DNA of 64,000 nt from positions 1-64,000 of the forward strand of contig CANFLX010000002.1 of NCBI GenBank assembly GCA_947447985.1, in the 5' to 3' direction. Each line of letters opens with the position of its first letter. Positions within the stretch are counted from its first letter, which is position 1. Below the pieces are notes generated by a model. That model had not been told where the DNA came from and searched no databases. It saw nothing but the letters and a program-made list of their open reading frames with translations. The position numbers and the translations under genes are program-made. This stretch comes from Comamonadaceae bacterium. GTDB taxonomy: Bacteria; Pseudomonadota; Gammaproteobacteria; Burkholderiales; Burkholderiaceae_C. This document shows positions 8,772 to 33,900 of the stretch, one piece after another.

Positions 8772-8783
8772 GCCAGCGCCCGC

Positions 8784-9377: not shown

Positions 9378-9411
9378 GGTGATTCGCCTTGGGTTTGAGT
9401 GGGTTGGGGTC

Positions 9412-9714
9412 TTAAACAATGGGCTGGTGCACGGTCACCAATTTGGTGCCATCGGGGAAGGTGGCTTCGACCTGGATGTCAGGAATCATCTCGGCGATGC
9501 CGTCCATCACATCGGCGCGGGTCAGGATGGTGCGTCCTTCGCTCATGAGTTGGGCAACCGTCTTGCCGTCACGTGCGCCTTCCATGACCGCAGCGCTGAT
9601 CAGCGCCATGGCCTCAGGGTAGTTCAGCAGCAGGCCCCGCGCTTTGCGGCGCTCGGCCAGCAGCGCTGCCGTAAAGAGCAGCAGTTTGTCTTTTTCGCGC
9701 GGTGTGAGTTCCAT
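9412..9714 (-). CDS. ureA: urease gamma subunit, first gene of the operon
   Basis: 100 residues starting [23 protein letters not shown], the canonical UreA N-terminus, with [12 protein letters not shown] and [21 protein letters not shown] at the C-terminus. It opens the operon ureA-J-B-C-E-F-G. A good sigma54-like element lies about 53-68 bases upstream of its start, suggesting nitrogen control. ureD is missing here and is found 8.3 kb away at 18.0-18.9 kb. Confidence 0.97.
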
Positions 9715-12302: not shown

Positions 12303-12402
12303 CAGGACGCATTGTCCTGCCTACAGTGAACCCAAGTTTCATCCAAGCCCCGTGAGTGGTGCCAGGTGAAACGAGATGTATCAACCACTGGAGGAATTTT
12401 TC

Positions 12403-13665
12403 ATGCAACGTCGTTTTACGCTCAAGGCACTTAGCGCTGCCGTCGCTTTGGCCGGTCTGTCGGCTCTGCCCGCCCACGCAGGTGACACCATCAAGGTCGG
12501 TGTCCTGCACAGCCTGTCCGGCACCATGGCCATTTCTGAAACCGTGTTGAAAGACACCGTGCTGATGGCGATTGACGAGATCAATGCCAAGGGCGGTCTG
12601 TTGGGCAAGAAGCTCGAGCCTGTGGTGGTGGACCCCGCGTCCAACTGGCCTTTGTTTGCCGAGAAAACCAAGCAGTTGCTGGGCCAGGACAAAGTGGACG
12701 TGATCTTTGGCTGCTGGACCTCGGTGTCGCGCAAATCGGTGCTGCCTGTGGTCGAAGAAATGAACGGCCTGCTGTTCTACCCTGTGCAGTACGAGGGTGA
12801 AGAGCTGTCCAAGAACGTGTTCTACACGGGTGCTGCGCCTAACCAGCAAGCCATCCCTGCGGTGGACTACCTGATGAGCAAAGACGGTGGCGGCGCCAAG
12901 CGCTGGGTGCTGCTGGGCACCGACTATGTCTACCCCCGTACCACCAACAAAATCCTGCGCGCCTACTTGCACAGCAAAGGTGTGGCTGACAAAGACATCG
13001 ACGAAAAGTACACGCCCTTTGGTCATTCGGATTACCAGACCATCGTGGCCGACATCAAAAAGTTTGCCGCCGGCGGCAAGACCGCCGTGGTGTCCACCAT
13101 CAACGGTGACTCCAACGTGCCCTTCTACAAAGAACTGGGCAATGCAGGCCTGAAAGCCAAAGACGTGCCCGTGGTGGCTTTCTCGGTGGGTGAAGAAGAA
13201 CTGCGCGGCGTGGACACCAAGCCTTTGGTGGGCCATCTGGCGGCGTGGAACTACTTCATGTCCATCAAGAACCCGACCAACGACGCTTTCATCAAGAAGT
13301 GGTCGGATTACGCCAAAGCAAAAGGTATTGCAGGACACAAAGACAAGCCTTTGACCAACGACCCGATGGAAGCGACTTACATTGGTATCAATATGTGGAA
13401 GCAAGCGGTTGAAAAAGCCAAGTCCACCGATGTCGACAAAGTGATCGCTGCCATGGCCGGCCAGACCTTTACAGCACCGAGCGGTATCAAGTCCATGATG
13501 GACGAGAAGAACCACCACCTGCACAAGTCCGTGTTCATTGGCGAGATCAAGGCCGATGGCCAGTTCAATGTGGTGTGGAAGACACCCGGCCCGGTCAAGG
13601 CCAAGCCATGGTCTCCGTTCATCGAAGGCAACGACAAGAAGCCTGATGAGCCTGTGAAAAAATAA
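12403..13665 (+). CDS. urtA: urea ABC transporter substrate-binding protein
   Basis: 420 residues with a cleavable signal peptide (RRFTLKALSAAVALAGLSALPAHA) and a type I periplasmic binding fold. The mature protein begins GDTIKVGVLHSLSGTMA, and ASNWPLFAEK and FGCWTSVSRKSVLPVVE match UrtA rather than amino-acid binders. The start at 12403 follows a GGAGGAA Shine-Dalgarno sequence. It captures urea (or short amides) for UrtBCDE. A stem-loop with T-run after the gene may make it more abundant than the membrane parts. Confidence 0.95.
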   Translation: MQRRFTLKALSAAVALAGLSALPAHAGDTIKVGVLHSLSGTMAISETVLKDTVLMAIDEINAKGGLLGKKLEPVVVDPASNWPLFAEKTKQLLGQDKVDVIFGCWTSVSRKSVLPVVEEMNGLLFYPVQYEGEELSKNVFYTGAAPNQQAIPAVDYLMSKDGGGAKRWVLLGTDYVYPRTTNKILRAYLHSKGVADKDIDEKYTPFGHSDYQTIVADIKKFAAGGKTAVVSTINGDSNVPFYKELGNAGLKAKDVPVVAFSVGEEELRGVDTKPLVGHLAAWNYFMSIKNPTNDAFIKKWSDYAKAKGIAGHKDKPLTNDPMEATYIGINMWKQAVEKAKSTDVDKVIAAMAGQTFTAPSGIKSMMDEKNHHLHKSVFIGEIKADGQFNVVWKTPGPVKAKPWSPFIEGNDKKPDEPVKK

Positions 13666-13683
13666 GCTCTTTTCTTGGCGCTG

Positions 13684-13739
13684 AACCGCCGCCGTGGTCT
13701 TGCGGGTGCACAGGAGCCCCGAAGGCTGCGGCGGTTTTT
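13684..13739 (+). terminator. terminator/attenuator between urtA and urtB
   Basis: AACCGCCGC (13684-13692) pairs perfectly with GCGGCGGTT (13728-13736), followed by T residues. A small inner hairpin AGCC-CCGA-AGGCT makes the structure branched. It lies inside the urt operon, so it likely acts as a partial terminator or RNA stabiliser that favours urtA over urtBCDE. Confidence 0.6.
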
Positions 13740-13755
13740 ACTTTTGAGGATGTTG

Positions 13756-15360
13756 ATGAAATTCAGTTGGGGACTGCAGCGCACGCTGTGGCTATGTATG
13801 GGATGCCTGGGGCTGACAAGCGCGGCCTACGCGCTGAGCCCGCAACAAGCCCAAAAAATGGCGGTGGGCGAGGGTGACGCGCGCATCGCGGCACTCCAGG
13901 AAGCGGTGCTGAGTCCGGATGCGCAAACCTTGGTGTTTATTCAGGCCTTGTCCGATGGGCTGGTGAAAATTGTGGACGGCAAGCCCGTGGTGGTGCGCGA
14001 TGGGCAGGCCACGGACGCTGCCAGTGGCGCGACGGTCGCGGTCACCGCAGACGCACTGCAAAGCGCGGAAGACGCGATGGTGAACAACCGCATGCGCGGT
14101 GAACTCGACAATGCGCTGGCCGCACTCAAGCTGCTCAGTGCAGACGCCGGCATGCGCCGTGACGCGGCCAAGGCCCTGCAGGGGCAGGTGAGTGATGCGC
14201 AGTTGCCCTTAATTGACAAAGCGCTGGCGCAAGAGACCGAGGGCGATATTCGCGACGCCTTGGGCTTGTTGCGCGCAGCAGCCTTGCTGGCCAGTGAAGA
14301 TCCGGCCAAGCGCCAGGAAGCGGCGGCGCTGTTGGGTCAGAGCGCCCAGGCCGCGACCCAAACCTTGTTGGCCGAGCGTTTGCAAATCGAGACCGACCCT
14401 GCGGTCAAGCAGTCGCTGTTCAAAAGCCTGAGTGAGGTTAAGGCCCGCCTGGCCTGGGGCGACCGGCTGGGCGCCATCTTCAGCGGCATCAGCCTGGGTT
14501 CGATCTTGCTGCTGGTGGCACTGGGCCTGGCGATTACCTATGGATTGATGGGCGTGATCAACATGGCGCATGGCGAGCTGATGATGATCGGCGCCTATGC
14601 CACCTACGTGGTGCAAGCGCTGTTTCAAAAGTACTTCCCGGCGGCATTTGACTGGTATTTGCTGGCCAGCGTGCCCGTGGCCTTTCTGGTGTCGGCCCTC
14701 GTGGGCGCAGCGCTGGAGCGCAGTGTGATTCGCTTTCTGTACGGCCGCCCGCTGGAGACCTTGCTGGCGACCTGGGGCATCAGCCTGATGCTGATGCAAG
14801 GTGTGCGCAGCCTGTTTGGCGCGCAAAACGTGGGCGTGGAAAACCCCCGCTGGATGAGCGGCGGCGTGCAAGTGATGGGCAACCTCTCGCTGCCCTACAA
14901 CCGCATCATCATCGTGGTGTTTGCGCTGAGCGTGTTGGCCGCGGTCGCCTTGCTGGTGGGCAAGACCCGCTTAGGTCTGTTTGTGCGTGCTGTCACGCAG
15001 AACCGACCGATTGCATCCTGCATGGGGGTGAACACCGCGCGCATTGACACCTATGCCTTTGCCTTGGGCTCTGGCATTGCGGGACTGGCGGGCTGCGCGC
15101 TCAGCCAGGTGGGCAATGTGGGGCCGGATTTGGGCCAGAGCTACATCGTGGACGCGTTCATGGTGGTGGTGCTGGGCGGCGTGGGCCAGCTGGCGGGCAC
15201 GGTGGTGGCCGCACTGGGCTTGGGTGTGCTGAACAAATTCTTAGAGGGCCTGGCAGGCGCCGTGCTGGCCAAAATTGCCGTGCTCCTGTTCATCATCATC
15301 TTTATTCAGAAACGTCCGCAGGGCATATTTGCCATGAAGGGCCGGAGTGCAGAAACATGA
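13756..15360 (+). CDS. urtB: urea ABC transporter permease UrtB
   Basis: 534 residues. A signal-like N-terminus (WGLQRTLWLCMGCLGLTSAAYA) leads to a helical periplasmic region of about 200 residues typical of UrtB. The LivH-like permease begins near residue 235 (GSILLLVALGLAITYGLMGV, then MAHGELMMIGAYATYV) and contains the EAA-like loop (GVNTARIDTYAFALGSGIAG). The ATG at 13756 is favoured by GAGGA five bases upstream; ATG at 13750 is the alternative. Its end overlaps the urtC start (ATGA). Confidence 0.94.
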   Translation: MKFSWGLQRTLWLCMGCLGLTSAAYALSPQQAQKMAVGEGDARIAALQEAVLSPDAQTLVFIQALSDGLVKIVDGKPVVVRDGQATDAASGATVAVTADALQSAEDAMVNNRMRGELDNALAALKLLSADAGMRRDAAKALQGQVSDAQLPLIDKALAQETEGDIRDALGLLRAAALLASEDPAKRQEAAALLGQSAQAATQTLLAERLQIETDPAVKQSLFKSLSEVKARLAWGDRLGAIFSGISLGSILLLVALGLAITYGLMGVINMAHGELMMIGAYATYVVQALFQKYFPAAFDWYLLASVPVAFLVSALVGAALERSVIRFLYGRPLETLLATWGISLMLMQGVRSLFGAQNVGVENPRWMSGGVQVMGNLSLPYNRIIIVVFALSVLAAVALLVGKTRLGLFVRAVTQNRPIASCMGVNTARIDTYAFALGSGIAGLAGCALSQVGNVGPDLGQSYIVDAFMVVVLGGVGQLAGTVVAALGLGVLNKFLEGLAGAVLAKIAVLLFIIIFIQKRPQGIFAMKGRSAET

Positions 15361-16460
15361 GTGAACTGATTCTTCCTACGCCCGCTCCGGTGCTCAGCCG
15401 CAAAGGCTGGGCCGTGTGGTTGGCGGTGCTGGCTTTGCTGTGTGGCGGGGTGCCGGTGCTCAATTTGCTGGTGCCCGCAGGCAGCGTGTTTCACCTGAGT
15501 GACTTTGCCGTCGGCCTGGTGGCCAAGATCATGTGCTACGCCCTGTGTGCCCTGGCCATGGATTTGATTTGGGGCTACACCGGCATTCTGAGCCTGGGCC
15601 ATGGACTGTTTTTTGCGCTGGGCGGCTATGCCATGGGCATGTACCTGATGCGGCAAATCGGCTTGGACGGCAATTACAAAAGCGCCTTGCCCGACTTCAT
15701 GGTGTTTCTGGATTGGAAAGAACTGCCCTGGCATTGGGCCCTGAGTGCAAGCTTGCCCGCCACCTTGTTCCTGGTGGTGGCCGTGCCGGGGCTGGTGGCG
15801 CTGGTGTTTGGATTTTTTGCCTTTCGCTCACGCATCAAAGGCGTGTACTTCTCCATCATCACCCAGGCGCTCACCTTTGCGGCCATGCTGCTTTTCTTTC
15901 GCAACGAAACCGGCTTTGGCGGCAACAACGGCTTTACCGACTTCAAGCGCTTGGCGGACATTCCGATTGCCACACCGGGCATGCGCATGGCCTTGTTTGT
16001 GCTGACGGCTGCTTGTTTGCTGGCGTTCTATCTGCTGGCGCGCTGGCTGGTGGCGTCCAAGTTTGGTCGGGTGTTGCAGGCGATTCGCGACGCAGAGTCG
16101 CGCGTCATGTTCAGCGGCTACTCGCCCCTGGGCTACAAGCTGGCGATCTGGACGCTCTCGGCCATGGTCTGCGGCGTGGCGGGCGCTTTGTATGTGCCGC
16201 AAGTGGGCATCATCAACCCCAGTGAGATGAGTCCCGCCAACTCGATTGAGATTGCCGTCTGGGCTGCCGTGGGCGGGCGCGCCACATTGATCGGGCCCAT
16301 CGTGGGCGCCTTTTTGGTCAACGGGGCCAAGAGCTGGTTGACGGTGACCTATCCCGAGTTTTGGCTCTACTTTTTAGGCGCTTTGTTTATCGGCGTGACG
16401 CTCTACCTGCCCGAAGGCGTGGTGGGCTTGGCGCGCAAGCTGCGCGGAGGCAAGGCATGA
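15357..16460 (+). CDS. urtC: urea ABC transporter permease UrtC
   Basis: A LivM-like permease of 367 residues with about ten hydrophobic segments, GYTGILSLGHGLFFALGGYA near residue 75 and the cytoplasmic coupling loop around AIRDAESRVMFSGYSPLGYK. It pairs with UrtB to form the channel across the inner membrane. Four-base overlaps with urtB upstream and urtD downstream show tight coupling. Confidence 0.94.
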   Translation: MSELILPTPAPVLSRKGWAVWLAVLALLCGGVPVLNLLVPAGSVFHLSDFAVGLVAKIMCYALCALAMDLIWGYTGILSLGHGLFFALGGYAMGMYLMRQIGLDGNYKSALPDFMVFLDWKELPWHWALSASLPATLFLVVAVPGLVALVFGFFAFRSRIKGVYFSIITQALTFAAMLLFFRNETGFGGNNGFTDFKRLADIPIATPGMRMALFVLTAACLLAFYLLARWLVASKFGRVLQAIRDAESRVMFSGYSPLGYKLAIWTLSAMVCGVAGALYVPQVGIINPSEMSPANSIEIAVWAAVGGRATLIGPIVGAFLVNGAKSWLTVTYPEFWLYFLGALFIGVTLYLPEGVVGLARKLRGGKA

Positions 16461-17332
16461 CCCCCGATCTTTTGGAAGCAGGCGCGCAGCGCTTTCAGGC
16501 AAGCAGACCTGCCACCGCAAGCGGGCAGACGGCCGCAGGTGGGCAGAACGCGGGCTTTGCCCGGGTGCGCCATTCGCAGGAAGTGGATGTGACGCATGGA
16601 CGCATCTTGTACCTGGAGGATGTGAGCGTCAGCTTTGATGGCTTCAAAGCCATCAACAAGCTGTCGCTGGACATTGCACCGGGCGAGCTGCGCTGCATCA
16701 TTGGCCCCAACGGTGCGGGCAAGACGACGATGATGGACATCATCACCGGCAAAACCCGGCCTGATTCGGGCACCGTGTTTTTTGGCAGCACGATTGACCT
16801 GCTGCGCCACAGCGAACCTGAAATCGCGCAGCTGGGCATAGGCCGCAAGTTCCAAAAACCCACGGTATTTGAGCAGCTCAGCGTGTATGAAAACCTGGAG
16901 TTGGCCCTCAAAACCCACAAGGGCGTGCGGGCGTCGGTCTTTTTCAAACGCAGCGCCGAGCAAGCCGATCGTTTGATTGAAGTGCTGCACACCATCCATT
17001 TGCAAGACAGCCTGAACCGCCAGGCCGGGCTGCTCAGCCATGGGCAAAAACAGTGGCTCGAAATTGGCATGCTGCTGATGCAAGACCCCAAGCTCTTGCT
17101 GCTCGACGAGCCCGTCGCAGGCATGACCGACCAGGAAACCGAGCGCACGGCCGAGCTGTTTTTGAGCCTCAAGGGCAAGCACTCGCTGGTGGTGGTGGAG
17201 CATGACATGGCGTTTATCAAAGCCATCTCCGATACCGTGACGGTGCTGTGCGAAGGTTCGGTGCTGGCGCAAGGGCCGCTGTCCCAGGTGCAGGCCGATG
17301 AGCGGGTGATTGAAGTTTATTTAGGACGGTAG
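16457..17332 (+). CDS. urtD: urea ABC transporter ATPase UrtD
   Basis: A LivG-type ATPase of 291 residues: Walker A GPNGAGKTT, Q-loop GRKFQKP, a divergent signature LLSHGQKQWLEIG, Walker B LLLLDEPVAGM and switch His in VVEHD. The start at 16457 overlaps the urtC stop. The N-terminal 45 residues are an unusual low-complexity Ala/Gln/Gly extension before the ATPase fold (LEDVSVSFDGFKA). Confidence 0.94.
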   Translation: MTPDLLEAGAQRFQASRPATASGQTAAGGQNAGFARVRHSQEVDVTHGRILYLEDVSVSFDGFKAINKLSLDIAPGELRCIIGPNGAGKTTMMDIITGKTRPDSGTVFFGSTIDLLRHSEPEIAQLGIGRKFQKPTVFEQLSVYENLELALKTHKGVRASVFFKRSAEQADRLIEVLHTIHLQDSLNRQAGLLSHGQKQWLEIGMLLMQDPKLLLLDEPVAGMTDQETERTAELFLSLKGKHSLVVVEHDMAFIKAISDTVTVLCEGSVLAQGPLSQVQADERVIEVYLGR

Positions 17333-17336
17333 CAGT

Positions 17337-18032
17337 ATGAGTTTGGTAGTCCAAGGCATCAACCAGTACTACGGCGGTTCGCACATTCTGCGCGACGTGA
17401 GCCTGGAGGCAAGGCCCGGCAAAGTGACCGTGGTGTTGGGCCGCAATGGCGTAGGCAAAACCACCTTGCTCAAATCCCTGATGGGCCTGGTGCCTATCAA
17501 GACTGGCACCATCACGCTCGATGGTGTGGCTTTGCAGGGTGCCACACCCTACGAGCGCGCACGCGCGGGTGTGGGCTATGTGCCCCAAGGCCGCGAGATT
17601 TTCGGGCGCCTCACGGTGCAGGAAAACCTGGCCATGGGTTTGGCGGGCAAGCCGGCATCCACGCCGATGCCGCAGGAGCTGTTGGAGTGGTTTCCGGTGC
17701 TGCACGAGATGCGGCATCGCCGGGGTGGCGATTTGTCCGGCGGCCAACAGCAGCAGCTCGCCATTGCGCGCGCGTTGGCTGCGGGCCCCAAGGTGCTGGT
17801 GCTCGATGAACCCACTGAAGGCATTCAGCCCAGCATCATCAAAGACATAGGGCGGGTGATCCGCATGCTGGCCGACAAAGGGTCCATGGCCATTGTGCTG
17901 GTAGAGCAGTACTACGACTTTGCCCGTGAACTGGCCGACGACTACGTCGTCATGGAGCGCGGTTCGGTGTTGGCGCGCGGGCGTGGCGCCAATATGGAGA
18001 TTGACGGCGTGCGGGAACTGGTCGCGATTTAA
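17337..18032 (+). CDS. urtE: urea ABC transporter ATPase UrtE
   Basis: A LivF-type ATPase of 231 residues and the partner of UrtD: Walker A GRNGVGKTT, Q-loop GYVPQGREIF, signature LSGGQQQQLAIARAL, Walker B VLVLDEPTEGIQP, switch region LVEQYYDF. It is the last gene of urtABCDE, four bases after urtD, and it converges on ureD with 14 bases between the stops. No clear terminator separates them. Confidence 0.95.
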   Translation: MSLVVQGINQYYGGSHILRDVSLEARPGKVTVVLGRNGVGKTTLLKSLMGLVPIKTGTITLDGVALQGATPYERARAGVGYVPQGREIFGRLTVQENLAMGLAGKPASTPMPQELLEWFPVLHEMRHRRGGDLSGGQQQQLAIARALAAGPKVLVLDEPTEGIQPSIIKDIGRVIRMLADKGSMAIVLVEQYYDFARELADDYVVMERGSVLARGRGANMEIDGVRELVAI

Positions 18033-18046
18033 GAGGCGGTGCCGAC

Positions 18047-18910
18047 CTACATCGCCCAAATGCGCGGTGTGGTGGCAGGCATGCTCCACACGGTAACGCG
18101 CCATGCCAAGCGCACTTGACGCAGCAAGTTCATCACCGATTCCACTTGCGGTGCCATGGCGCGCACGACAACGGTTTGGGGGTTCGGGCTGGTGGCCCCC
18201 GCATGGGCGGCCAAGCCGCTGGCCGCGATCACCTCGCGCGCCGCGTCCAAAGCGCCTTCCTTGGCAGCGCGCTCCATGGGCTTGCCACTCACCAAATACA
18301 AAGTGGCCCAGCAGCGCATGCCCGCCAGCGCCGCCGGGCTGTTGAGCAGCAGTGCATCCTGCGCATCGACCCGCCCGCGCTCCAGCCACACACCCGGCAA
18401 TTCCAGGTGCTGTTGTACAAAGCCTTGCGCAAACGGCAGATTGGCATGCGGCAGGCCCAGGGCGGTCACATCCCAGCCCATGGCGTGTGCGTCTGCATCG
18501 AGGTTCAGTGTCAGGTGGTTTTCGGCGCGGCATCCGCTGTAGCAAATGGTCTCCAGGGGCAGCCATTCCAGGCGCGCATTGCCTTCCAGCGTGATGTCGG
18601 TGCGCTGCAGGGCCAGCGGCCCTTCACTGCGGTAAAAGCGCGTGGCCCCCGGTGTGGTGACCAGCCCGTGGGTGCCCGGCGCCGCACGCAGCGCAATTTC
18701 CAGCGTGTCGCCGCCCACCAGGCCACCAGGTGGGTGCACCAGCACGTTGTGGCAGACCGCGTCCCCTTCGGGGTACAGGCTTTGCAAAATCCGCAGGGGC
18801 CCGCTGTGCGCGTGGCGCGCTACCGTGAACGCACCCTGCCGTTCGTAATCGAGCTGGAGCTTGGCGTGCCAGGACAGTTTAGGTTTCTCCGTGGGCCCGC
18901 CGCTCGGCAT
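18047..18910 (-). CDS. ureD: urease accessory protein UreD, detached from the main urease operon
   Basis: UreD/UreH is the scaffold that docks UreF-UreG onto apo-urease and channels nickel. Family markers present: HSGPLRILQSLYPEG, HPPGGLVGGDTLEI, TTPGATRFYRS, LEWLPLETICYSGC and GRVDAQDALLL. 287 residues is a normal length. No other in-frame ATG lies near the conserved N-terminus, so it starts at 18910, inside the 3' end of the upstream ion-channel gene (32-base overlap). It is therefore likely to be transcribed with the channels rather than with ureABC. Confidence 0.95.
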   Translation of the reverse strand: MPSGGPTEKPKLSWHAKLQLDYERQGAFTVARHAHSGPLRILQSLYPEGDAVCHNVLVHPPGGLVGGDTLEIALRAAPGTHGLVTTPGATRFYRSEGPLALQRTDITLEGNARLEWLPLETICYSGCRAENHLTLNLDADAHAMGWDVTALGLPHANLPFAQGFVQQHLELPGVWLERGRVDAQDALLLNSPAALAGMRCWATLYLVSGKPMERAAKEGALDAAREVIAASGLAAHAGATSPNPQTVVVRAMAPQVESVMNLLRQVRLAWRVTVWSMPATTPRIWAM

Positions 18911-19817
18911 TCACCTGCTCGGCAATGGCTTCTACCTGCTCATCGGTCATGCCAAATTTGGCCTGCATTTGCTTCAGCTTGGCCCGCTCTTCTTCGGTGA
19001 CAACCCCATCGGCCAGGATTTCACGAACCTCGGTTTCGTACACCGCCTCACGTCGTTGCACCTGCGCGGTGTAGGCGGTTGCCACCACACCGGTCAGGAT
19101 TGCGGCCAGGGCGATGGCAAGCACCTGGGTCACCACGACCAAGGCAACGCCAAAATAAGTCACCGGGTCCACATTGCCCCAGCCCGAAATAATGGTCAGG
19201 ATGAACCAGTGCATGGCTGCCGGAATGGAGGGGAAGATGTCGGGCTGGTCATGCCCTTCGATGATGTAAATCAGCGACGAAAACAGCAGGCAACTGATGA
19301 ACAACAGAAACATTGCCGACGAAAACGAGTCTTTTTCGGCCTTGATGGCCTCGAACATATCGTCCATCGCGCTGTTGTAGCGAGAGAGCTTGAAGATCCG
19401 CAGCAAACGGAACATCCGCAGCACGCGCAAGTCAGCGCCAGGGAAGATCAGTTGCAGGTAAAAGGGCACCGTGCTGAAAAAGTCCACCATACCGAATACG
19501 CTGAAGAGGTACTCTTTGCGTCCGCGCCATGCGCCTCCCTCTTCATGTTCGTATTTCGCGCCGTAAGACCAAACCCGCAACACATATTCGATGGAAAAAA
19601 CGACCACGCTGACCAGGTCGAACATGTGGAAGTAGGCGGAGTACGCCTCATGCAGATCGTGGAGCGACTCCAAAATGATCGCCAGCACATTGGCCACGAC
19701 CAGTGTGGCAATGAAAATTTCGCAGGCCTTGCTGGCGCCATCCAACACGGCCCCGTCCAGAATTTCAAAAATACGGCGTTGGAGGCGTGGAGGCGCGGAG
19801 TGGGGGGTAGCGGACAT
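18879..19817 (-). CDS. voltage-sensor ion channel with non-canonical filter (channel 1)
   Basis: 312 residues of the ion_trans superfamily. S1 about 33-50, S2 66-82, S3 104-123, S4 129-146 with Arg/Lys every third residue (DLRVLRMFRLLRIFKLSRY), S5 166-187, pore loop 200-218, S6 222-250. The filter reads TIISGWGNVDP, so GWGN replaces GYGD and the residue before the first Gly is missing relative to the canonical SVGYGD in the 553-residue neighbour. After S6 comes a TerB-like acidic helical stretch (ILADGVVTEEERAKL). Ion selectivity cannot be predicted with confidence. The gene starts 11 bases after channel 2 and overlaps ureD. Confidence 0.85.
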   Translation of the reverse strand: MSATPHSAPPRLQRRIFEILDGAVLDGASKACEIFIATLVVANVLAIILESLHDLHEAYSAYFHMFDLVSVVVFSIEYVLRVWSYGAKYEHEEGGAWRGRKEYLFSVFGMVDFFSTVPFYLQLIFPGADLRVLRMFRLLRIFKLSRYNSAMDDMFEAIKAEKDSFSSAMFLLFISCLLFSSLIYIIEGHDQPDIFPSIPAAMHWFILTIISGWGNVDPVTYFGVALVVVTQVLAIALAAILTGVVATAYTAQVQRREAVYETEVREILADGVVTEEERAKLKQMQAKFGMTDEQVEAIAEQVNAERRAHGET

Positions 19818-19828
19818 CGATGAACTCG

Positions 19829-20731
19829 TTACTTTTTCTTGTTTTGGGCTTCGTCAATAAAAAGCTGTACCTGCGCGTCTGACAGACGGTATTGGGCTTG
19901 CAGCTTTTTCAACACCAAGCGTTCGGAGTCGGACACCACGCCGTCCGCCAAAACGGCACGCAACTGGCTTTGGTAGGCCGCCTTTTTCCGTGACAGCTGG
20001 TTCGAAAAGGCCGAAGCCACGATACCGGTCATGATGGCAGCCATACACACGCCCAGAAAGCCGGTGAGCAGCGCGATGACTTCTCCCGCCTTGGTCACCG
20101 GTTCGACGTTGCCGTAACCAGACGTGATGGTGACAATGGACCAGTAAATCGAGTGGGGGATGGACCCAAAATACTGAGGCTGTTCATGGCCTTCGGCAAA
20201 GTGCATCAAGGAGGCCGACACCACGGTTGCGATCAACAACAAAAAGGCGGCCGAGCCAAAGGCGCGCCGCTCGGAGTGGACCGCATGGAACAGGTCTTGC
20301 AAGGCCGTGTTGTATTTGGACAGCTTGAGAATACGCAGCAGCCGCAGCACCCGCAGGATACGCAAGTCCAGTGCAGGAAAAAACATGTGCATGTAATGCG
20401 GCATGGTGGCAAAGAAATCCACCAATCCAAACGGGCTGAAGATGTACTGGCGCCGCCCTTTCCAGGCGCCACCTTCCGAGGGGCCGAATTTGGCGCCCAG
20501 GGACCACACCCGCAGAGCGTATTCCAAGGTGAAGAACATCACGCTCCAGAACTCAAGCTCATGGAAGAAGTCCTTGTATTCCGCATGGACCTCTGGCACG
20601 GAGTCCAGAATCACTGCCGAACAATTGACCAGTACAACGAGCGTAATCAGCCACTCAACGTAGCGACTTACTTTGTATTTCGGGGATCCCTCAAGGATCT
20701 CCATCAAGGCAAGTTTTATATCTTTAACCAT
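19829..20731 (-). CDS. voltage-sensor ion channel with shortened filter (channel 2)
   Basis: 300 residues, clearly paralogous to the downstream channel. S1 about 25-43, S2 61-77, S3 97-117, S4 122-140 (DLRILRVLRLLRILKLSKY), S5 158-178, pore helix and filter 193-210, S6 214-245. The filter TITSGYGNVEP has GYGN and again lacks one residue relative to SVGYGD. The C-terminal segment VLADGVVSDSERLVL plus a helix resembles the same TerB-like unit as in its neighbours. It is second-to-last of the four membrane genes in the presumed operon; 107 bases separate it from channel 3. Confidence 0.85.
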   Translation of the reverse strand: MVKDIKLALMEILEGSPKYKVSRYVEWLITLVVLVNCSAVILDSVPEVHAEYKDFFHELEFWSVMFFTLEYALRVWSLGAKFGPSEGGAWKGRRQYIFSPFGLVDFFATMPHYMHMFFPALDLRILRVLRLLRILKLSKYNTALQDLFHAVHSERRAFGSAAFLLLIATVVSASLMHFAEGHEQPQYFGSIPHSIYWSIVTITSGYGNVEPVTKAGEVIALLTGFLGVCMAAIMTGIVASAFSNQLSRKKAAYQSQLRAVLADGVVSDSERLVLKKLQAQYRLSDAQVQLFIDEAQNKKK

Positions 20732-20838
20732 TTTTCAGCATTCAAGCCCATACGCGATTCGGTACAGACGTCACAAGTCAAAGTCCCATGCGGAACGATG
20801 TCGATTATCGTTGGGCCAACCAGGTGATTGCTCCGCTT

Positions 20839-22500
20839 CTAGTCCCTCAGTTGCCGCCACAACGCTACGTCGCTGGCTGACAGCCTGTCTTTACCGACCG
20901 CCACTGCCTCAAAGGCCACAGGGTCGGTCAGAACCGAAAGCTGCCGGATTTGGCTCAGCAAGGATTTGTAGTGTTCCACTGCCAACTCCGGCTTTTCAGC
21001 GATGGTATTGATAGGCAAGCCTCTCAGATCGGACTCTTTTTCCATCTGGGTCTGAATGAGTTTAATGAGTGAGGTAATCTCACCCTCGCTCAAATGGAGG
21101 CGCCGCGCCTCATTGCGGATGACCTGTATTTCGTCAGCATCAATCACACCGTCTTTGAGGATGTTGTAGAGGTCATGCTTCAGTTCTTCGCGCTCTTTTT
21201 GCAATTCATCGCTGAAGGCTGACGACAGCAATGCCGCCGGAATTGCAAAAATACCGATGCCAATAAAGGCCAGCACAATCGTCATGGCCCGTCCCGCCGG
21301 GGTGATCGGTGAAATGTCACCGTATCCCACCGAGGCCAGGGTCACCACCGCCCAATAAATAGAGGTGGGGATATTCTCAAACTTGTCAGGCTGAGCGTCG
21401 TATTCAAACAAGTAGCCCAAGGACGCGGTCAAGACCACCAGCAGCACCATGATGAATGCGGCAGCTGCAATCACGGGCCATTCGCGCGCAATGACCTTGC
21501 CCAGCGTAGCGGTTGCATCATTGCCACGCGTTAATTTAAGAAGCCGGGTGAGTCGGAACACCCGCAAGAAGCGCAGATCGAGCAGGTGATGCAAAAATAC
21601 TTCTAAGAAGAAGGGAAGAATAGCCAAAAAGTCAATGACAGTCGACGGCGACTTGGCTTGTCGCCAACGCCCTGAAAGCGTTCCTTTGTATCCAGGCTCC
21701 TCCACGCAAGAGTACATGCGCATGCAATATTCGATCGTGAATATCGCCACTGCAACTGAGTCCAAAACCACAAACTCTACGTTGAGCAGGTAAGAGATGC
21801 TGTGCACCGACTCCAGAATGACCGCCAACACAGAAATGAGCACCCAAACAGCAATGAATATTTCAAATAATTCCTGCAGTTTGCCGCCGTAATCGCCCGG
21901 GAAAATAAGCGCGTGTACTTTTTGACGAAATGTGCGCCCCTGATTCTTGGTGGTAAATGTCTGGTAGGCCGGTACGATGATTCGAACCAATTTGAGTATT
22001 CGCAACAGCCGCAACGCCCGCAGCACACGCAAATCGACGGGCAAAAAGGCTTGGAGGTAAAACGGTGCGACCGCAAGAAAATCGATGATTGCAAAGGGGC
22101 TGAAGACATAGCCCAAGCGGGCATGCTTGCCGGCTTTGAACTCAGCATCTTCTGGCGCCAGATACAGACGCATCAAATATTCGACCGTAAAAATAGCAAT
22201 GGAAAAAACGTCGAAATAATGAAACCAGGTGCGATTCGGTTCAAATATGCCAGGCACTTGCTCAAATACCAACGTGAACAAGTTGACAACAATGAGCATT
22301 CCAATCCATTTTTCGATGGATTTTTGGAAATTGCCCTCAATCGAAGGGTCCAGCAGCCAGGCGTGCAACCACTTTCGCAGCGGCAGGTCGCGAGAAATAT
22401 TCGCCTCGACCTCCTCCGAGCCCATCAAACTCTTCACATCCAAGTCTTTGATGGATATTGTTTTGTGTTTTTCTGCAGGTAAATCTTGTTGTGTTTCCAT
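20839..22500 (-). CDS. potassium channel-like protein with two voltage sensors and one pore (channel 3)
   Basis: 553 residues. The first four-helix sensor covers about 65-173 with S4 DLRVLRALRLLRILKLVRI and no pore after it. A second sensor covers about 210-325 with S4 DLRFLRVFRLTRLLKLTRG. A single pore module follows: S5 341-365, filter SVGYGD at 390-395, S6 405-430. The cytoplasmic tail has a TerB-like segment (ILKDGVIDADEIQVI, 447-485) and about 65 further residues. The filter predicts K+ selectivity. The 4+4+2 arrangement differs from ordinary Kv channels (4+2) and two-pore channels (6+6). It starts eight bases after the upstream membrane-anchored protein. Confidence 0.85.
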   Translation of the reverse strand: METQQDLPAEKHKTISIKDLDVKSLMGSEEVEANISRDLPLRKWLHAWLLDPSIEGNFQKSIEKWIGMLIVVNLFTLVFEQVPGIFEPNRTWFHYFDVFSIAIFTVEYLMRLYLAPEDAEFKAGKHARLGYVFSPFAIIDFLAVAPFYLQAFLPVDLRVLRALRLLRILKLVRIIVPAYQTFTTKNQGRTFRQKVHALIFPGDYGGKLQELFEIFIAVWVLISVLAVILESVHSISYLLNVEFVVLDSVAVAIFTIEYCMRMYSCVEEPGYKGTLSGRWRQAKSPSTVIDFLAILPFFLEVFLHHLLDLRFLRVFRLTRLLKLTRGNDATATLGKVIAREWPVIAAAAFIMVLLVVLTASLGYLFEYDAQPDKFENIPTSIYWAVVTLASVGYGDISPITPAGRAMTIVLAFIGIGIFAIPAALLSSAFSDELQKEREELKHDLYNILKDGVIDADEIQVIRNEARRLHLSEGEITSLIKLIQTQMEKESDLRGLPINTIAEKPELAVEHYKSLLSQIRQLSVLTDPVAFEAVAVGKDRLSASDVALWRQLRD

Positions 22501-22508
22501 GGGGCACC

Positions 22509-23141
22509 TCAGAATTCGAGTTCAGCGATCTTGATGGCGTACGAACCCTTGTCGCAAATAGCGATTTTTAGTTGGATTTTTTCCGCAATCGGGTCAGTCA
22601 GCATCAGCTGCGAAGTCACGGTGGGTACGGCGGATCCAGGCGGGTTGGGCATGATCTTGTCAATGGCGATTGAGCCCACCAAGCTATGGTCTGCCGGATC
22701 GCAGGCCGCAACAAAGACGGGTGGTTTGCCTGTAAAGGGGTTGATCATGTCCTTGAATTCGGTCTGGGTGGTCAGGTACTCCAGGCAAGGACCCCAGGTC
22801 TTGGGTGCAGTGGCCGCTGACACGCTGGCAGGTGCCGCCGCTGCAGCATCTTTTTCGCTTTCCGAAGCAGCAGCGGCTGGCGTGGCTGCTCGAGCGCCAC
22901 CCGCGCACGCTGCGATGGCGTAGTCGGGGGCGAAACGCTTTGGGGCCTCCTGGCTGAACCATGCGGCCCATTGTTCGCCGTTGCGTTTGCTGCCTTCGGT
23001 CTTGAGTGCTTCCCTATAGGCCAGCACACCAAGCCAGGTGACCGCCACCAAGACGAGAGCGATAAAAACCAGAAATGCAAGGTCGCCTTTGGTCCATTCT
23101 TTGGCATTGCCTGAGATTGGCGGTTCGGTGGTTGCGTCCAT
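22509..23141 (-). CDS. membrane-anchored hypothetical protein upstream of the channels
   Basis: 210 residues: about 18 cytoplasmic residues, one membrane helix (about 21-42, DLAFLVFIALVLVAVTWLGV), then an extracytoplasmic domain interrupted by an Ala/Ser-rich linker near 85-112. Cys residues (ACAGG, GPCLEY, AACDPA, AICDKG) may form disulfides. The distal part has a beta-rich pattern, recalling pilin-like or substrate-binding modules, but no family is recognised. It is the first gene of the channel unit, with an eight-base gap to channel 3, and could be a channel partner. A perfect 8 bp hairpin (23170-23177 with 23187-23194) lies in its leader. Confidence 0.7.
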   Translation of the reverse strand: MDATTEPPISGNAKEWTKGDLAFLVFIALVLVAVTWLGVLAYREALKTEGSKRNGEQWAAWFSQEAPKRFAPDYAIAACAGGARAATPAAAASESEKDAAAAAPASVSAATAPKTWGPCLEYLTTQTEFKDMINPFTGKPPVFVAACDPADHSLVGSIAIDKIMPNPPGSAVPTVTSQLMLTDPIAEKIQLKIAICDKGSYAIKIAELEF

Positions 23142-23332
23142 TTTTAATTTTTCCGGGTTGAAAACGGGCCCATTGCCCGCGATACAGGCAATGGTTTGGG
23201 CGCGCAGATGATATTTGAAAAAGTAGGGTTATTGCGAAAATTCAAGAATTCAACTAAATCTTTGCAAGAAATGTTTTTATGGTGCGAAAGGCTTCGCGCT
23301 GGTCGGTGCTGCGACGCCCGTTCACCGCTCCG

Positions 23333-24100
23333 TCAAGTCCCCTGTGATCCGCGATGTGCCCAAGCCGTGGTGCGCTTTTCAATCCAGCTGAAAAGCTCGT
23401 ACATGGCCATGGCCATTGCACCCACCACCAGCAGTCCCGCAAACGCCAGCCCCATCTGCATGGCCGAGCCCGCCGAGATCAGCAGATAGCCAATGCCTTC
23501 ATTGGCCGCTGTCATCTCCGACACCGTCGTACCGACAAAGGCCAAGGTAATGGCAACTTTGAGTGAGCCGTAGAAGTAGGGCATGGACCGTGGCAGCCCG
23601 ACCTTGACCAGCACATCCCAGCGCTTGGCGCCCAGCACGCGCAGCACGTCTTCGAGTTCAGGCTCCAGCGTGGCCAGGCCGGTCGCAATATTGACCATGA
23701 TCGGAAAAAAGCTGATCAAAAACGCCGTCAAGATCGCCGGGCCTGCGCCAATGCCAAACCACACCACCAAAATCGGCACAAAGGCCGCCTTGGGCAAAGC
23801 GTTGAATGCGGTCATCAGCGGATACACCGCCGCATAGGCCAAGCGCGAGCTGCCAATCACAAAGCCCAGCAGCACGCCCACCACGATCGCAATGCCAAAG
23901 CCCACCATGGTCACCCAGAAGGTGCGCCAGGCGTGTCCGCCGATCAAAGCCTTGTATTCCCAAAACTGGTTGCCTATGCGTGCAGGGCTGGGGAAGATGA
24001 ATTCCGACACGTCAAACGCGCTGCACAAGCCCTGCCACAGCAGCAGCATCGCCACCAGCAGCACCCACGGCGACCAGGTTTCTAGTTGTTTGGGGGTCAT
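23333..24100 (-). CDS. ABC transporter permease, nitrate/sulfonate/NMT1-type
   Basis: A SsuC/TauC-like permease of 255 residues with six hydrophobic segments and the EAA loop (AFNALPKAAFVPILVVWFGIG and, further on, a LGAKRWDVLVKVGLPRS segment). It forms the membrane channel for the substrate-binding protein and ATPase encoded upstream. Its start overlaps the stop of the ATPase gene by four bases. The substrate is unknown; the neighbouring uric-acid genes suggest a purine or purine breakdown product (inference). Confidence 0.9.
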   Translation of the reverse strand: MTPKQLETWSPWVLLVAMLLLWQGLCSAFDVSEFIFPSPARIGNQFWEYKALIGGHAWRTFWVTMVGFGIAIVVGVLLGFVIGSSRLAYAAVYPLMTAFNALPKAAFVPILVVWFGIGAGPAILTAFLISFFPIMVNIATGLATLEPELEDVLRVLGAKRWDVLVKVGLPRSMPYFYGSLKVAITLAFVGTTVSEMTAANEGIGYLLISAGSAMQMGLAFAGLLVVGAMAMAMYELFSWIEKRTTAWAHRGSQGT

Positions 24101-24927
24101 GCTGCGCTCCCGGCAGTGGTCGTTTGGCGGCTCGCGCCGATGTGGCCGCGCAATTCGTGCACGATATTGGTGAACTCGGGGGTGTAGGTCATTTCCAGAT
24201 CGCGCGGTCGCGGCAGGTCAATCTCGCGCTTGACCACAAAGCGCCCTGGGCTTTTGCTCATCACGTACACCGTGTCGGCCAGGAACACCGACTCGCGCAA
24301 ATCGTGGGTGACCAAAATCACATTGAACTGCTGTTCGGTCCACAGGTCGCGCAAGATGCACCACAGGTCCTCGCGCGTGAAGGCGTCCAGTGCGCCAAAG
24401 GGCTCGTCTAGCAGCAGCATCTTGGGTTCATGGATCAAGGCGCGGCAAATGCTGGCGCGCTGCTGCATGCCGCCTGAGAGTTGCCAGGGGAACTTGTCCT
24501 CGTAGCCGCCCAAGCCGACTTTTTGCAGCAAAGCGCGCGCCCGTTGCTCGTACTCTTTTCGTTGGGCTTTGAAGTTGCTGCGAAAGGGTTCGACAATTTC
24601 CAGCGGTAGCAAGACGTTGTCCACGGTGGTGCGCCAGGGCAGCAACGAGGGCGCTTGAAAAGACATACCCGAAATCTTGAGCGGCCCGGTCACTGGCGCG
24701 CCGTCAATCACGATGCGTCCCTTGGACGGCATCTTCAGTCCGGTCGCCAGTTTCATGAAGGTGGACTTGCCGCAGCCCGAGGGCCCGACGATGGCGATGA
24801 ACTCGCCCTGGCGCACTTTCAGGTCAATCGCCTCCACCGCAAAGTGGTTTTGCGCCTGCAGTTCGGCGTTGTAGGCCAGCCAGACGTCTTGAAAATCAAC
24901 AAACCAGCCGGACTCAGGTGCGTTCAT
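24097..24927 (-). CDS. ABC transporter ATPase, nitrate/sulfonate/NMT1-type
   Basis: A SsuB-like ATPase of about 276 residues: Walker A GPSGCGKST, Q-loop MSFQAPSLLPWR, signature LSGGMQQRASICRAL, Walker B MLLLDEPFGALD and switch His in VTHDLRES. The start at 24927 is chosen because the longer frame to 25002 runs into the end of the binding-protein gene. It energises the permease encoded next. Confidence 0.92.
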   Translation of the reverse strand: MNAPESGWFVDFQDVWLAYNAELQAQNHFAVEAIDLKVRQGEFIAIVGPSGCGKSTFMKLATGLKMPSKGRIVIDGAPVTGPLKISGMSFQAPSLLPWRTTVDNVLLPLEIVEPFRSNFKAQRKEYEQRARALLQKVGLGGYEDKFPWQLSGGMQQRASICRALIHEPKMLLLDEPFGALDAFTREDLWCILRDLWTEQQFNVILVTHDLRESVFLADTVYVMSKSPGRFVVKREIDLPRPRDLEMTYTPEFTNIVHELRGHIGASRQTTTAGSAA

Positions 24928-24944
24928 GGTGCTGCTCCACCCGC

Positions 24945-25973
24945 TTACTTCTTGGGCAAGACGTTGAGTTCGGCCTTGGAGGGCAAAAAGCTCGGGTTCC
25001 ACACGGCATCCGGGTTGATGCGGGTTTTGGTGTTGAAGGCGTCCGACACCTGAGACGCCATCAAGGCCAGGCGCGGGCCCGTGGCCTGGCCAAACCCCTC
25101 CAGGCGTGCGTTGGGGCTGTTGATCGCGGTGTCAATCGCCAGTTGCAGGCGGCGCGTTTCCAGTTCCACGTTGATGATGCCGTCACGCGCCTTGACGTCG
25201 GCCACGGCGGCTGCCGGGTTGGCAATCACGTCTTTCATGCCTTTGGTGAATGCGGCCAAAAAGGCTTTGATGGCGGCAGGGTTTTCTTTGATGAGTTTGG
25301 GCGACACGATGATGGCGTTGCCATACAGCTTCACGCCGTAGTTCGGGTAGGGCAGCACCACCACATCGTCAGCTTTCACGCCACGCGCTTCCAGGTTCAG
25401 CAGGGAAGTGAAGGTAAATCCGGTGATGGCATCCACATCGCCGCGCACCAACATGGTTTCCCGCAAGGGCGGGTCCATCGCGATCCACTGCACGCCGTTC
25501 ACCGCATTGGCCTTGGCAAAAATGGGGAAGGCGCGGCGGCCTGCGTCAAACACGGGCGCGCCCAGCTTCTTGCCGCTCAGGTCTGCGGGGGTTTTGATGC
25601 CGTACTTCTTCAGGGCCATGACCGAGGCGGGCGTGTCGTTGTAGACCATCATCACGGCCACCGGCTTGTTCGGTGCATCCGCGTTGTTGGCATGGAACTC
25701 CATGAGGGCTGCCAAATCGGCAAAGCCGATGTCATAAGCGCCCGAGGCCACCCGGGTCACCGTGCCACCGGAGCCGTTGCCCGCATCGATGCTCACGTCG
25801 AGCTTGGCGTCCTTGAAGTAGCCCTTGGCCGCAGGCGTCAAAAACAAGGCCGCCGGGCCTTCAAAGCGCCAATCCAACTGAAACTTCAATGCCGTGGTCT
25901 GGGCCCAGGCCAGGTGGGTGCAACAAGCGGCACAAGCGACCGTCAGCGTGCGGAGAAAGAAGCGTTTTGACAT
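24945..25973 (-). CDS. NMT1/THI5-like periplasmic substrate-binding protein
   Basis: 342 residues with a signal peptide (LRTLTVACAACCTHLAWAQ) followed by the NMT1-type fold (ALKFQLDWRFEGPAALFLTP, then YFKDAKLDVSIDAGNG). Family members bind pyrimidines, nitrate, sulfonates or purine-related compounds. It heads the three-gene importer on the minus strand and is divergent from 5-hydroxyisourate hydrolase across 140 bases. That pairing supports a role in purine or urate-derivative uptake. Confidence 0.88.
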   Translation of the reverse strand: MSKRFFLRTLTVACAACCTHLAWAQTTALKFQLDWRFEGPAALFLTPAAKGYFKDAKLDVSIDAGNGSGGTVTRVASGAYDIGFADLAALMEFHANNADAPNKPVAVMMVYNDTPASVMALKKYGIKTPADLSGKKLGAPVFDAGRRAFPIFAKANAVNGVQWIAMDPPLRETMLVRGDVDAITGFTFTSLLNLEARGVKADDVVVLPYPNYGVKLYGNAIIVSPKLIKENPAAIKAFLAAFTKGMKDVIANPAAAVADVKARDGIINVELETRRLQLAIDTAINSPNARLEGFGQATGPRLALMASQVSDAFNTKTRINPDAVWNPSFLPSKAELNVLPKK

Positions 25974-30949: not shown

Positions 30950-33900
30950 TTAACCCCCGCTTTGCGGGGCGGGCCACAGCGTGCCAGTCGCCAGTGCGTC
31001 AATCTCCACCATCAGGGTGCGTGTTTGGGTCAGGGCGGCCACGGTGTTTTGGTAGTGCTCCACGTCCGCCAAGGTCAGGGTGCGGCCCTTGCGGTCTTTG
31101 AGCCACTTTTCGCACACCTGGTAGCCGCCCACTTTGAACTCCCAGGTGGCCTGCGGTACGTCCTCAAAGTACTGGGTCGCGTTGATATAGACCCGGTCCG
31201 CCCCAGGTTCGCGGCGCGGTTTGTCCACCGTGGTATCACCCGCCACCGGAAAGCGGGGCCGCAAGGCGGGCGGCACCTGGCGCAGCAAGTGCAGGTCGAT
31301 CAGGGTGCGGCCCAGAGGCAGCAAGGCCTGCCACACCTGCGCGAAGGTCTGCGGGCTTTGGCCCACCACACCCAGCGGAATGCGCGGAAAGTCGCTCTTC
31401 AAAAACTCCGCATACCGGCTGCGGTAGCCCGGCGCGTGCAACACGGCGTAGACAAAGGCCAGCACGTCCTCCGTTGCCACACCTTTTGGCAGATCGTGCC
31501 GCGCTGGTTCGGGCGGGAGGCCCAGGCTTTCGGCCAAGGCATGCAGAAAGGCGGGGGCGATGTTGGGTTGCGGCGGCTTGCCTTGGGGGTGGAGCCAGAG
31601 GGGGAATAGCGAGGGTATGCCCTTGTTGCTATAGAAGGTTCTGTTGTCAATTGGAACATCTGAGACGTAAGCGTGAGAAAAGGCTTCGTCAACGACCGAC
31701 TGCCGAATCGCTAGCAATCCAAGGTTCTTTTCAGCCACTAAATGCCCCATAACTTTTACAACCGGCCAGCCCATCAGTCCCCGGCTTTGGCCGGTGTAAT
31801 AGGCATAGCGGGTGTCAAAAGGCCGGTAAGTCACAGATTGCAACATGGATCGGTGGGGGCCGCTTTTTCGCACGTCCTCTTGTGCATGCTCAAAATGCCA
31901 GTCCCTCACGTCCGGCCCAGGCAGCCGGAAGCGCTGTCGAGCGCTGGCTTCATCCGCTTTGAGAAACCAGTTGATGGCTGACCAGCATTCCTCTGGGCTG
32001 AAGTGGATGTTTAGCTGGTCGCATTTGGTCACAATGCCGGTGCCGTTGGTTGGGAAAATATCCGTCACCTTCCAGCCCCGCTCGTAGTCGGGCGCCGCCG
32101 CTTCGTTGCGTGGCACAAAGAGCAAGAGCGGCGCTTTGGGCGCAAGCGCTTGCCAAACTACATCGCTCCAAGCTGTGCTGTCGAGCCAGTGGTATTTGTG
32201 CTCCCGGTTACCCCAAAGTTCGGCATAGCGCACCAGCGCTTTGCGCGGCAGTTCGCTGCGCGCCTGCCGCGGGCTGGCCACGCTGTTGCCAAACAGGTCT
32301 AGGGTGGCAAGCGATGCGTTCGGGTCCTTGCGTTTGATCAGCACGGTAATGGCCACGCCTTGCTCAATGTCAAACACGTTTTTGTCGTCGCCTTGTGCGC
32401 GCAGCGCGGCGGGCGTGTGCTCCTTCTTTTTGGTGTTGCCGTGCAGGTCCAGCACATAGATCTGGTCAAAGTCGCGCATCAGGCTGGCGCGCATACCCCG
32501 AAAGGTGGGGTTGTCGAGCCAGCCGTGGTTGGTAATAAAGGCCACCATGCCGTGGCCGGTGCGCACGATGCGGTCGTGGGCAAAGCGAATGAACTTGGCG
32601 TAATCGTCGTTGATCCACTTGCTGTTGCGCTCTTTGAGCGGGCCGCCCTCGGGCTCACGCTTGTATTCGGTCATCAGCTCCATGATCATGGGGCTGACGT
32701 TTTGCGACTCGCCCGAATACGGCGGATTGCCCAAGACCACCTGCACCGGCGCGAACCGTTTGACTTCTTCGGCGCCCAGGTTTTCTGCCGCAATCCAGTT
32801 GGCCATGAACTGGTCGGTGCTTTTGGAAATCATGTCCAGCGTGTTGGTCAGGTAGACGTTGAGCCGCTCGTCGCCCTGGCTGCTGGTGCGCTTGCCAAAG
32901 GCATAGCCCTGTTCCTGCAGTTGCAGTGCGAGTTTGAGGTGGGCCACCGTGTAGGGCGCCATCATCAGCTCGAAGCCAAAGATGCGCGGTAGCAGGCGCT
33001 CTTTCACGTACTGCGGCCACAGGCCGTCGTTGCCGTGGCGGGTTACGTGCTGGTGGATCTGGTCGATCACGCGGCGCAAAAAAGTGGCCGTTCCGGTCGC
33101 GGGGTCCAAAATCAGCGTGTCTTTGTCGGCCAGGCCGTCCGGCTTGCCCAGCTCGGTTTTCAGCAGCGTGTCCACACTGCGCACCATGAAGTCCACCACC
33201 GGCTGTGGCGTGTAGTACACGCCACGCTGTTCGCGCAGTTTTTGGTTGTAGGCGCCCAAAAAAGTTTCGTAGAAATGAAACACCGGGTCTTCAAAGCCCT
33301 GCTTGCGGCTGTGGCGGTGCAGCACTTTGTCCATGTCGGTGTAGCGCAGGCTGAAAGCCACTTGCTCAATCAGCCAGCGCAATTGCTCGCTCAGGTCGGG
33401 GCTGGCGACGTGCTGGAAAAATTGCCGCAAGAATGGATTGGCGCGGGGAATAAGAAAGCCCGCCTTTTCGAGGTTGAACTCGCCTTTGCGCAAGTGGGCG
33501 GGTAACTTCTCAGGGGCGGCGCCATACAGCGTGGTGCTTTCAAACACCCGGGCCGTAAAAAGGCCGTAGACCGCAGTTTGGGCATACATGTCGCCAAACT
33601 CCTGGTCCTGCAGGTTGGGCATGAGCAAGGATTTGAAGGCGGCGTATTGCGCTTGCAAGGCTTCGTCCCCGGTGCCCAAAAGTTCTGCCACCAGGTCGCG
33701 CAGCAAGCGGGTTTGCCCCGCCAGGCTGGCCGCCAGTTGCTGCGGTGTGCCGAGTGTGGGGGTGACTTCGTCGCAAAAGCTGCGTATCAATTCACTCCAA
33801 CGCGCGTCGGCGTCGGGGTGCAGGTCGATCGCCTTGCCGCGCAAGGCGCCCAGGCTGATGGTCATTCGCTTCTCAGGCCCTACCAGCCAGACAAAGTCGA

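Follow-up and report, generated by a model that had tools for sequence, protein, structure and literature searches.

Voltage-gated K+ (Kv) channels of prokaryotes and animals combine an Ion_trans fold of six transmembrane (6TM) helices with a TVGYGD selectivity filter, and to our knowledge every bacterial voltage-gated channel so far studied is a homotetramer. Channels of the BacNav family carry a filter of the LESWS type. In animals, silent Kv (KvS) subunits have a voltage sensor and an altered pore; KvS/Kv2 heteromers are described in PMC12113274. In alkaliphilic Bacillus, with NaChBac and NsvBa as the channels concerned, voltage-gated Na+ entry feeds cation/H+ antiport for pH homeostasis (PMC4225499), and UmpAB (DUF1538) of Halomonas works as a Na+(Li+,K+)/H+ antiporter (PMC5484666). 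Here we describe a run of four genes, p1-ch2-ch3-ch4, followed by the urease gene ureD on the minus strand of a 64,000-nucleotide stretch of a Comamonadaceae bacterium genome (assembly GCA_947447985.1, contig CANFLX010000002.1, positions 1 to 64,000), called the window throughout. With moderate confidence, we read this locus as a composite channel cassette with its own promoter-like element and two modules, behind which ureD is an ordinary downstream gene. The run comprised the following features:

23208-23222, minus strand: promoter- or operator-like element TTTTTCAAATATCAT, upstream of p1 and conserved in relatives
22509-23141, minus strand: p1, one predicted transmembrane helix and a periplasmic domain with conserved Cys; partner in module A
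20839-22500, minus strand: ch2, tandem voltage-sensor K+-type channel, arranged as voltage-sensor domain (VSD), VSD, pore and C-terminus; module A
21946-22326, minus strand: first (extra) VSD of ch2, from Pfam, alignment to ch4, the AlphaFold2 (AF2) model and S4 basic positions
21316-21342, minus strand: ch2 filter TLASVGYGD, full length by row alignment
19829-20731, minus strand: ch3, voltage sensor and pore, filter one residue short; module B
20108-20131, minus strand: ch3 filter TITSGYGN, one residue short by row alignment
18879-19817, minus strand: ch4, voltage sensor and pore, short filter with Trp, TerB-like C-terminus below cut-off; module B
19173-19196, minus strand: ch4 filter TIISGWGN, one residue short and with Trp by row alignment
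18047-18910, minus strand: ureD (PF01774), starting at ATG 18910 inside ch4 or at CTG 18877

The intergenic gaps were 8 (p1-ch2), 107 (ch2-ch3) and 11 (ch3-ch4) bases. An earlier reading of this DNA from its letters (the sequence-only reading) had given the coordinates, strand, gene order and gaps exactly. It had also counted four membrane genes; Pfam assigned ch2, ch3 and ch4 to Ion_trans, as expected of channels, while p1 was modelled as a one-pass protein and not a channel.

The three channels resembled Kv channels in joining a VSD to a pore, with Kv1, Kv2, Kv4 and KCNQ as best PDB matches, and ch2 kept a full K+ filter. They differed from Kv channels in the second VSD of ch2 and in the pairing of ch3 with ch4, each with one filter-region residue fewer. 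The partner subunit proposed for ch3 and ch4 is reminiscent of KvS subunits, but ch3 and ch4 are bacterial, carry another filter change and would pair two deviant subunits with each other in a putative heteromer. BacNav channels of alkaliphilic Bacillus are a candidate analogue, through voltage-gated cation entry that feeds antiport; the filters of ch2, ch3 and ch4 were not of their LESWS type. The likeness to UmpAB lies in the DUF1538 genes that adjoin ch3-ch4 in other genomes, whereas the window cassette holds none. Among titles and abstract openings of the open literature, without subscription papers or preprints, neither a tandem-sensor K+ channel nor paired filter-deviant subunits were described, and searches on ureD with channels and on Limnohabitans channels likewise showed neither. 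If our reading is true, the co-inherited short-filter pair would be a small natural system for testing the origin of heteromers and of new selectivity, and the tandem-sensor K+ channel would offer two voltage sensors per pore subunit.

We propose that p1-ch2-ch3-ch4 would be a composite, partly mobile cassette, often placed in the slot between purine-catabolism/transport genes and ureD and transcribed from its own promoter-like element. Module A (p1-ch2) would supply a K+-type channel, each subunit of which has an additional voltage sensor, together with its periplasmic partner. Module B (ch3-ch4) would form a voltage-gated cation channel as a heteromer, both its subunits carrying voltage sensors and lining the shortened filter. 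Together the modules would set or reset the membrane potential, cations may re-enter to serve Na+/K+:H+ antiport once the cytoplasm turns alkaline, and ureD would be an ordinary downstream gene, open to read-through from the cassette. A more specific version is tentative: an obligate ch3-ch4 heteromer with a new short filter might act with antiporters as an alkali-load valve, in this lineage beside ammonia-producing purine and urea catabolism, and travel with the dual-sensor K+ channel.

A scan of a genome collection described as covering 84,980 species gave 187 relatives of ch3/ch4, of which we fetched the best 80 as loci, and records very close to the window's genome may be outside these 80. 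Genes around the relatives' loci were called with our own simple script, on which the gene-neighbourhood counts rest. Alignment of the rows showed one residue fewer between the pore-helix Trp and the GYG of ch3 in 82 of 82 rows; its filters were mostly SGYGN and in some rows AGYGN, with the Tyr replaced by Phe, Trp, Asn or Ser in nine rows. The ch4 filter was one residue short and contained a Trp in all 75 rows having a filter (of 78 rows). In the ch3-ch4 pair of genome G537, the filters were STGYGN and GGWGN. The Ion_trans fold and S4 basic residues of Kv channels were present in ch2, ch3 and ch4 (Pfam, alignments), and the S4 basic residues were nearly invariant across rows. The full-length TxxTxGYG filter was found in ch2 but not in ch3 and ch4; because their filters were one residue short in every row with letters, ch3 and ch4 were not filed as K+ channels.

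The deviant filter had a single origin: the 34 deviant-filter rows formed one clade (support 100/99.9) in a 57-row tree, and outside relatives, 38-44% identical, retained TT[VL]GYGD. The ratio of nonsynonymous to synonymous substitution rates (dN/dS) of the pore was 0.011-0.050 for ch3 and ch4 in four comparisons with the window; in several comparisons dS was near saturation, and no ratio is given for those. These values ruled out ch3 and ch4 as decaying pores, and the strong constraint on the pore regions indicated that the odd filter was maintained. At the C-terminus, four of eight members of ch3/ch4 reached E<=0.05 with TerB (PF05099), the lowest E being 0.0015, while P0004 scored 19.3 bits, short of the 24.4-bit cut-off, and a DG..E motif was shared among ch2, ch3 and ch4. 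As the filter was one residue shorter than in K+ channels, the selectivity of module B probably differs from K+, and module B would probably be nonselective or lean towards Na+. The best reading of the pair is a predicted obligate heteromeric, filter-deviant voltage-gated cation channel.

The grouping into two modules was evident from pairwise distances over 55 loci. Partial rho was 0.59-0.60 for p1 with ch2 and 0.70 for ch3 with ch4, against 0.09-0.17 across modules, and bootstrap intervals of the within- versus cross-module differences (0.23-0.51 and 0.15-0.40) excluded 0. Median gaps were -4 bases for ch3-ch4 (75 pairs), 8 for p1-ch2 (61) and about 100 for ch2-ch3. Each module was also found without the other: G603 held p1-ch2 without ch3-ch4, and G537 held ch3-ch4 without adjoining p1-ch2, behind the genes c30-c31-c32 with c53 before them. 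In L134 and L163, too, no p1-ch2 adjoined the ch3-ch4 pair. The set c30-c31-c32 also preceded ch3 in L134, L153, L156, L162, L163 and L164; the DUF1538 protein c53 stood before c30 in L134, L156, L163 and L164, and the L153 and L162 loci began at c30. Pfam placed c30 above its cut-off as a P-II protein, with DUF1538 and NhaD_1 also above theirs, and gave no match for c31 or c32. A ClC-like gene followed the ch3-ch4 set in four loci, and three loci encoded a voltage-sensor-only protein. NhaD genes were present in six loci, made up of three of these together with L159, L161 and L162. Because of these antiporter-type neighbours and the Bacillus precedent, cation re-entry and pH homeostasis are proposed, by analogy, for module B; a pH or alkali role for the channels is possible on this basis and not on that of ureD. 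L202 also belonged to the group with ch3 (and in most cases ch4) behind a P-II protein and two unassigned proteins.

In module A, p1 had no Pfam or NCBIfam match and its fold no PDB match at E<=0.001. Its residues C119, C147 and C196 were invariant in 45 rows, and AF2 modelled it as a one-pass membrane protein (pLDDT 88). Pfam matched ch2 to Ion_trans in two stretches. Its AF2 model (mean pLDDT 70) placed pore helices after two groups of four helices, and Foldseek of this model led to Kv channels. The first VSD aligned with the ch4 sensor (37%), and its basic S4 positions were kept in 63-68 of 68 rows. The filter read TLAS[VI]GYGD in 71 of 71 rows, with Ser in place of the fourth-position Thr of TxxTxGYG. 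These features are best read as a K+-type channel with two VSDs per subunit and a one-pass periplasmic partner. A NaChBac-like channel, c23, was present near the cassette in L120, L124, L131, L136, L142, L146 and L148, with LESWS or LESWA in most; most c23 loci added a further Kv channel, DUF4337 and a ch2-like channel, placing Na+- and K+-type voltage-gated channels in one island.

Upstream of p1, AATATCAT was found within 300 bp in 47 of 61 regions, compared with 69 of 5000 random 300-bp segments. The element ends in AATATCAT; its commonest form in relatives was TTTTGCGAATATCAT, and the window copy TTTTTCAAATATCAT was the single match in 64 kb (0.03 expected). With a stricter form of the element, 43 of 45 matches in the 80 loci were upstream of p1, and the element was found behind several different upstream genes. 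The strict pattern gave two matches in 13 genomes, both at cassette-compatible positions, and no wider regulon was seen among them. A general palindromic operator was rejected, as arms of at least 7 occurred in 11 of 47 copies (mean 5.7 versus 4.4 when shuffled). Judging by its conservation and placement, the element is a promoter-like candidate that may serve the cassette as promoter or operator.

By title, the fetched loci were mostly Comamonadaceae, Burkholderiales, Betaproteobacteria or Limnohabitans, largely metagenome-assembled genomes (MAGs), and included four Oxalobacteraceae and a few other labels; record titles suggested freshwater hosts. Two MAGs, L147 and L153, titled Rickettsia typhi and Bordetella parapertussis, look misassigned, with genes close to Burkholderiales loci. 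The complete p1-ch2-ch3-ch4 set was present in 62 of the 80 loci, many others being truncated by contig ends, and L159 had an extra gene between ch3 and ch4. At a larger scale the cassette was rare. A close ch4 occurred only in G000 and G080 of 150 family genomes, and p1 in 2 of 398 phylum genomes; at E<=1e-60, 4 of 369 class genomes had a ch2 match, but in all except one of these four it covered the second VSD and pore only. Phylum-wide ch3 matches were obtained in 30 of 398 genomes, their filters being read only where shared with the outside-relative set. Within the genus of G080, 54 of 84 genomes had a ch3 orthologue, at a cut of E<=1e-140 set by eye.

The surroundings of the run in the window were as follows:

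23333-25973, minus strand: SsuABC/TauABC-like ABC transporter, below NCBIfam cut-offs
12376-18032, plus strand: urtABCDE-like urea ABC transporter, convergent with ureD; same layout in relatives
4852-9714, minus strand: ureA, HupE/UreJ, ureB, ureC, ureF and ureG (Pfam urease gamma, HupE_UreJ, beta, alpha, UreF and CobW/HypB/UreG)

The ureD product matched PF01774 at E 1.4e-46, over the cut-off. Binding-protein, permease and ATPase families were matched for four of the five genes at 12376-18032, the urt names being presumed from gene order. In several channel-less relatives, Ssu/Tau-like transporter genes directly preceded ureD.

That ureD starts inside ch4, as the sequence-only reading had it, holds with ATG 18910, which gives a 32-base overlap; CTG 18877 lies 1 base past the ch4 stop, and the relatives' ATG aligned with it in 25 of the 36 loci having ch4 and ureD. 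In six more of these loci the ATG was one codon upstream of that position. The nearest relative, L085, matched the window in both the CTG and the ATG upstream of it, and the 32-base overlap was common to these two only; smaller overlaps occurred in L107 (by 11) and L128 (by 4 if the ATG at -9 is used). The long overlap was thus a matter of start choice, since most relatives' ATG falls just past the ch4 stop. Measured at the CTG-equivalent position, the ch4-ureD gap ranged from -11 (L107) to +260 in 21 of the 36 loci and exceeded 1 kb in 15 (13 at 1.1-1.5 kb and two further). In L117, L125, L126, L129, L139, L144, L147, L151, L152 and L155, ch4 and ureD are separated by c16, which encodes a membrane protein that has a cyclic-nucleotide-binding domain and resembles ZIP weakly, below cut-off. 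A scan of 17900-23600 gave one promoter-like match (2.7 by chance) and six terminator-like matches (7.3 by chance), neither above chance, and none of the terminator-like matches was at ch4-ureD. Transcripts of the channel genes may therefore continue into ureD, and such read-through from the cassette is plausible. The proposal that ureD is under channel-gene control stands to this extent; the separation of ureD from ureABC, cited with it, was also seen in relatives without the channels. In the channel-less L077, L079 and L082, ureD likewise ran antiparallel to urt and the 19-20 kb fetched contained no match to ureABC, and the channels were rejected as the cause of the separation.

The sequence-only reading had suggested a shared task for the channels and ureD, such as coping with ammonium, K+ or pH change while urea is hydrolysed. 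In a functional urease unit of this kind, that task would be why the channels are kept with ureD. The neighbourhood it rested on does recur. Counting a row as informative if ureD was seen or at least 3 kb downstream lacked it, the 81 rows including the window comprised 35 near, 2 far and 25 without ureD (19 uninformative rows not counted), so that ureD was on the same strand <=1.6 kb from the cassette in 35 of 62 informative rows, which were spread over several separate clades of the ch3 tree. The cassette was often flanked by purine and urea genes, and in L156 an alternative channel-antiporter cluster, of the P-II/DUF1538 kind, filled the same slot between purine genes and ureD. However, the ch3 tree required at least 10 changes of adjacency, and the 13 loci with gaps of 1.1-1.5 kb held intervening genes. 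In the genus of G080, ureD presence was independent of ch3 (23 of 30 genomes without ch3 and 43 of 54 with it, p=0.79; at >=90% completeness, 16 of 18 and 23 of 26, Fisher p=1). Only 22 of 43 genomes with both genes placed them within about 8 kb, a distance set by eye; in the remainder they were far apart or on different contigs, some assemblies being fragmented. In G261 a ch4 fragment adjoined ureD. The 29 other ureD loci of the window's genus had upstream ssuC (7), ch4 (2), ch2 then a 1.1-kb stretch (1) or no reference gene (19). Distances of ureD correlated with those of ssuA (0.86), xdhC (0.85), urtE (0.77), ssuC (0.64) and urtD (0.59), and within the cassette with ch2 (0.61), p1 (0.38), ch4 (0.35) and ch3 (0.30). 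Because the ch2 and p1 values were intermediate, these correlations argued against a link of ureD with ch3 and ch4 more than with ch2. Adjacency to ureD is common but dispensable; a dedicated urease-channel system was not supported and we regard it as unlikely. From these comparisons ch3-ch4 appears to be a tenant of the urea/purine locus, ch2 less clearly so.

An arrangement of ch2, ch3 and ch4 in one heterotetramer, where ch3 and ch4 would modulate the K+ pore of ch2 while being electrically silent themselves, would follow the KvS/Kv2 heteromers (PMC12113274) and would suit the single gene run, the shared ancestry and C-terminal motif, and the confinement of deviant filters to ch3 and ch4. 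We consider it improbable, as the modules occur separately, their histories differ, and ch3-ch4 pairs persist without ch2 alongside. Positional hitchhiking, in which the purine-urea locus would be a tolerant insertion slot and the genes beside the cassette would tell nothing of what it does, is quite possible, if short of an even chance: different cassettes and genes occupied the slot, L097, L099, L103 and L105 carried the cassette elsewhere, and L087 showed an apparent p1-ch2 replacement against ch3-ch4 (distances to the window of 0.95 for p1, 0.38 for ch2, 0.09 for ch3 and 0.11 for ch4). Yet ch4 and ureD had the same orientation in 36 of 36 loci, over considerable divergence. Several observations weigh against the reading that we prefer, a two-module cassette with its own element and a short-filter heteromer. 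An alternative alignment puts the gap in the pore helix (TSGYGN versus TVGYGD), so that the filter might still pass K+, and filters ending in GN occur in known K+ channels such as hERG. The pairing of ch3 with ch4 is suggested by co-inheritance and gene coupling, and sharing an operon does not by itself make two channels heteromeric. For the pore of ch2, AF2 confidence was low (pLDDT about 41-52). Exact AATATCAT was missing from 14 of 61 regions, the window copy is a variant, and TTTTNCGAATATCAT, the strict form, occurred in just two of the 13 genomes searched. Between ch2 and ch3 in the window is the sole terminator-like match on the minus strand (20783-20796), which is not above chance but could matter. 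Matches to UmpA/UmpB, ClC and TIGR00775 NhaD were below NCBIfam cut-offs, and ch2 tracked ureD (0.67 on 21 common loci) nearly as urtE did (0.73).

The purine locus of the window also held a frame of 1097 amino acids (30950-34243), the first 90 residues of which resemble, by eye, a restriction- or helicase-type protein.

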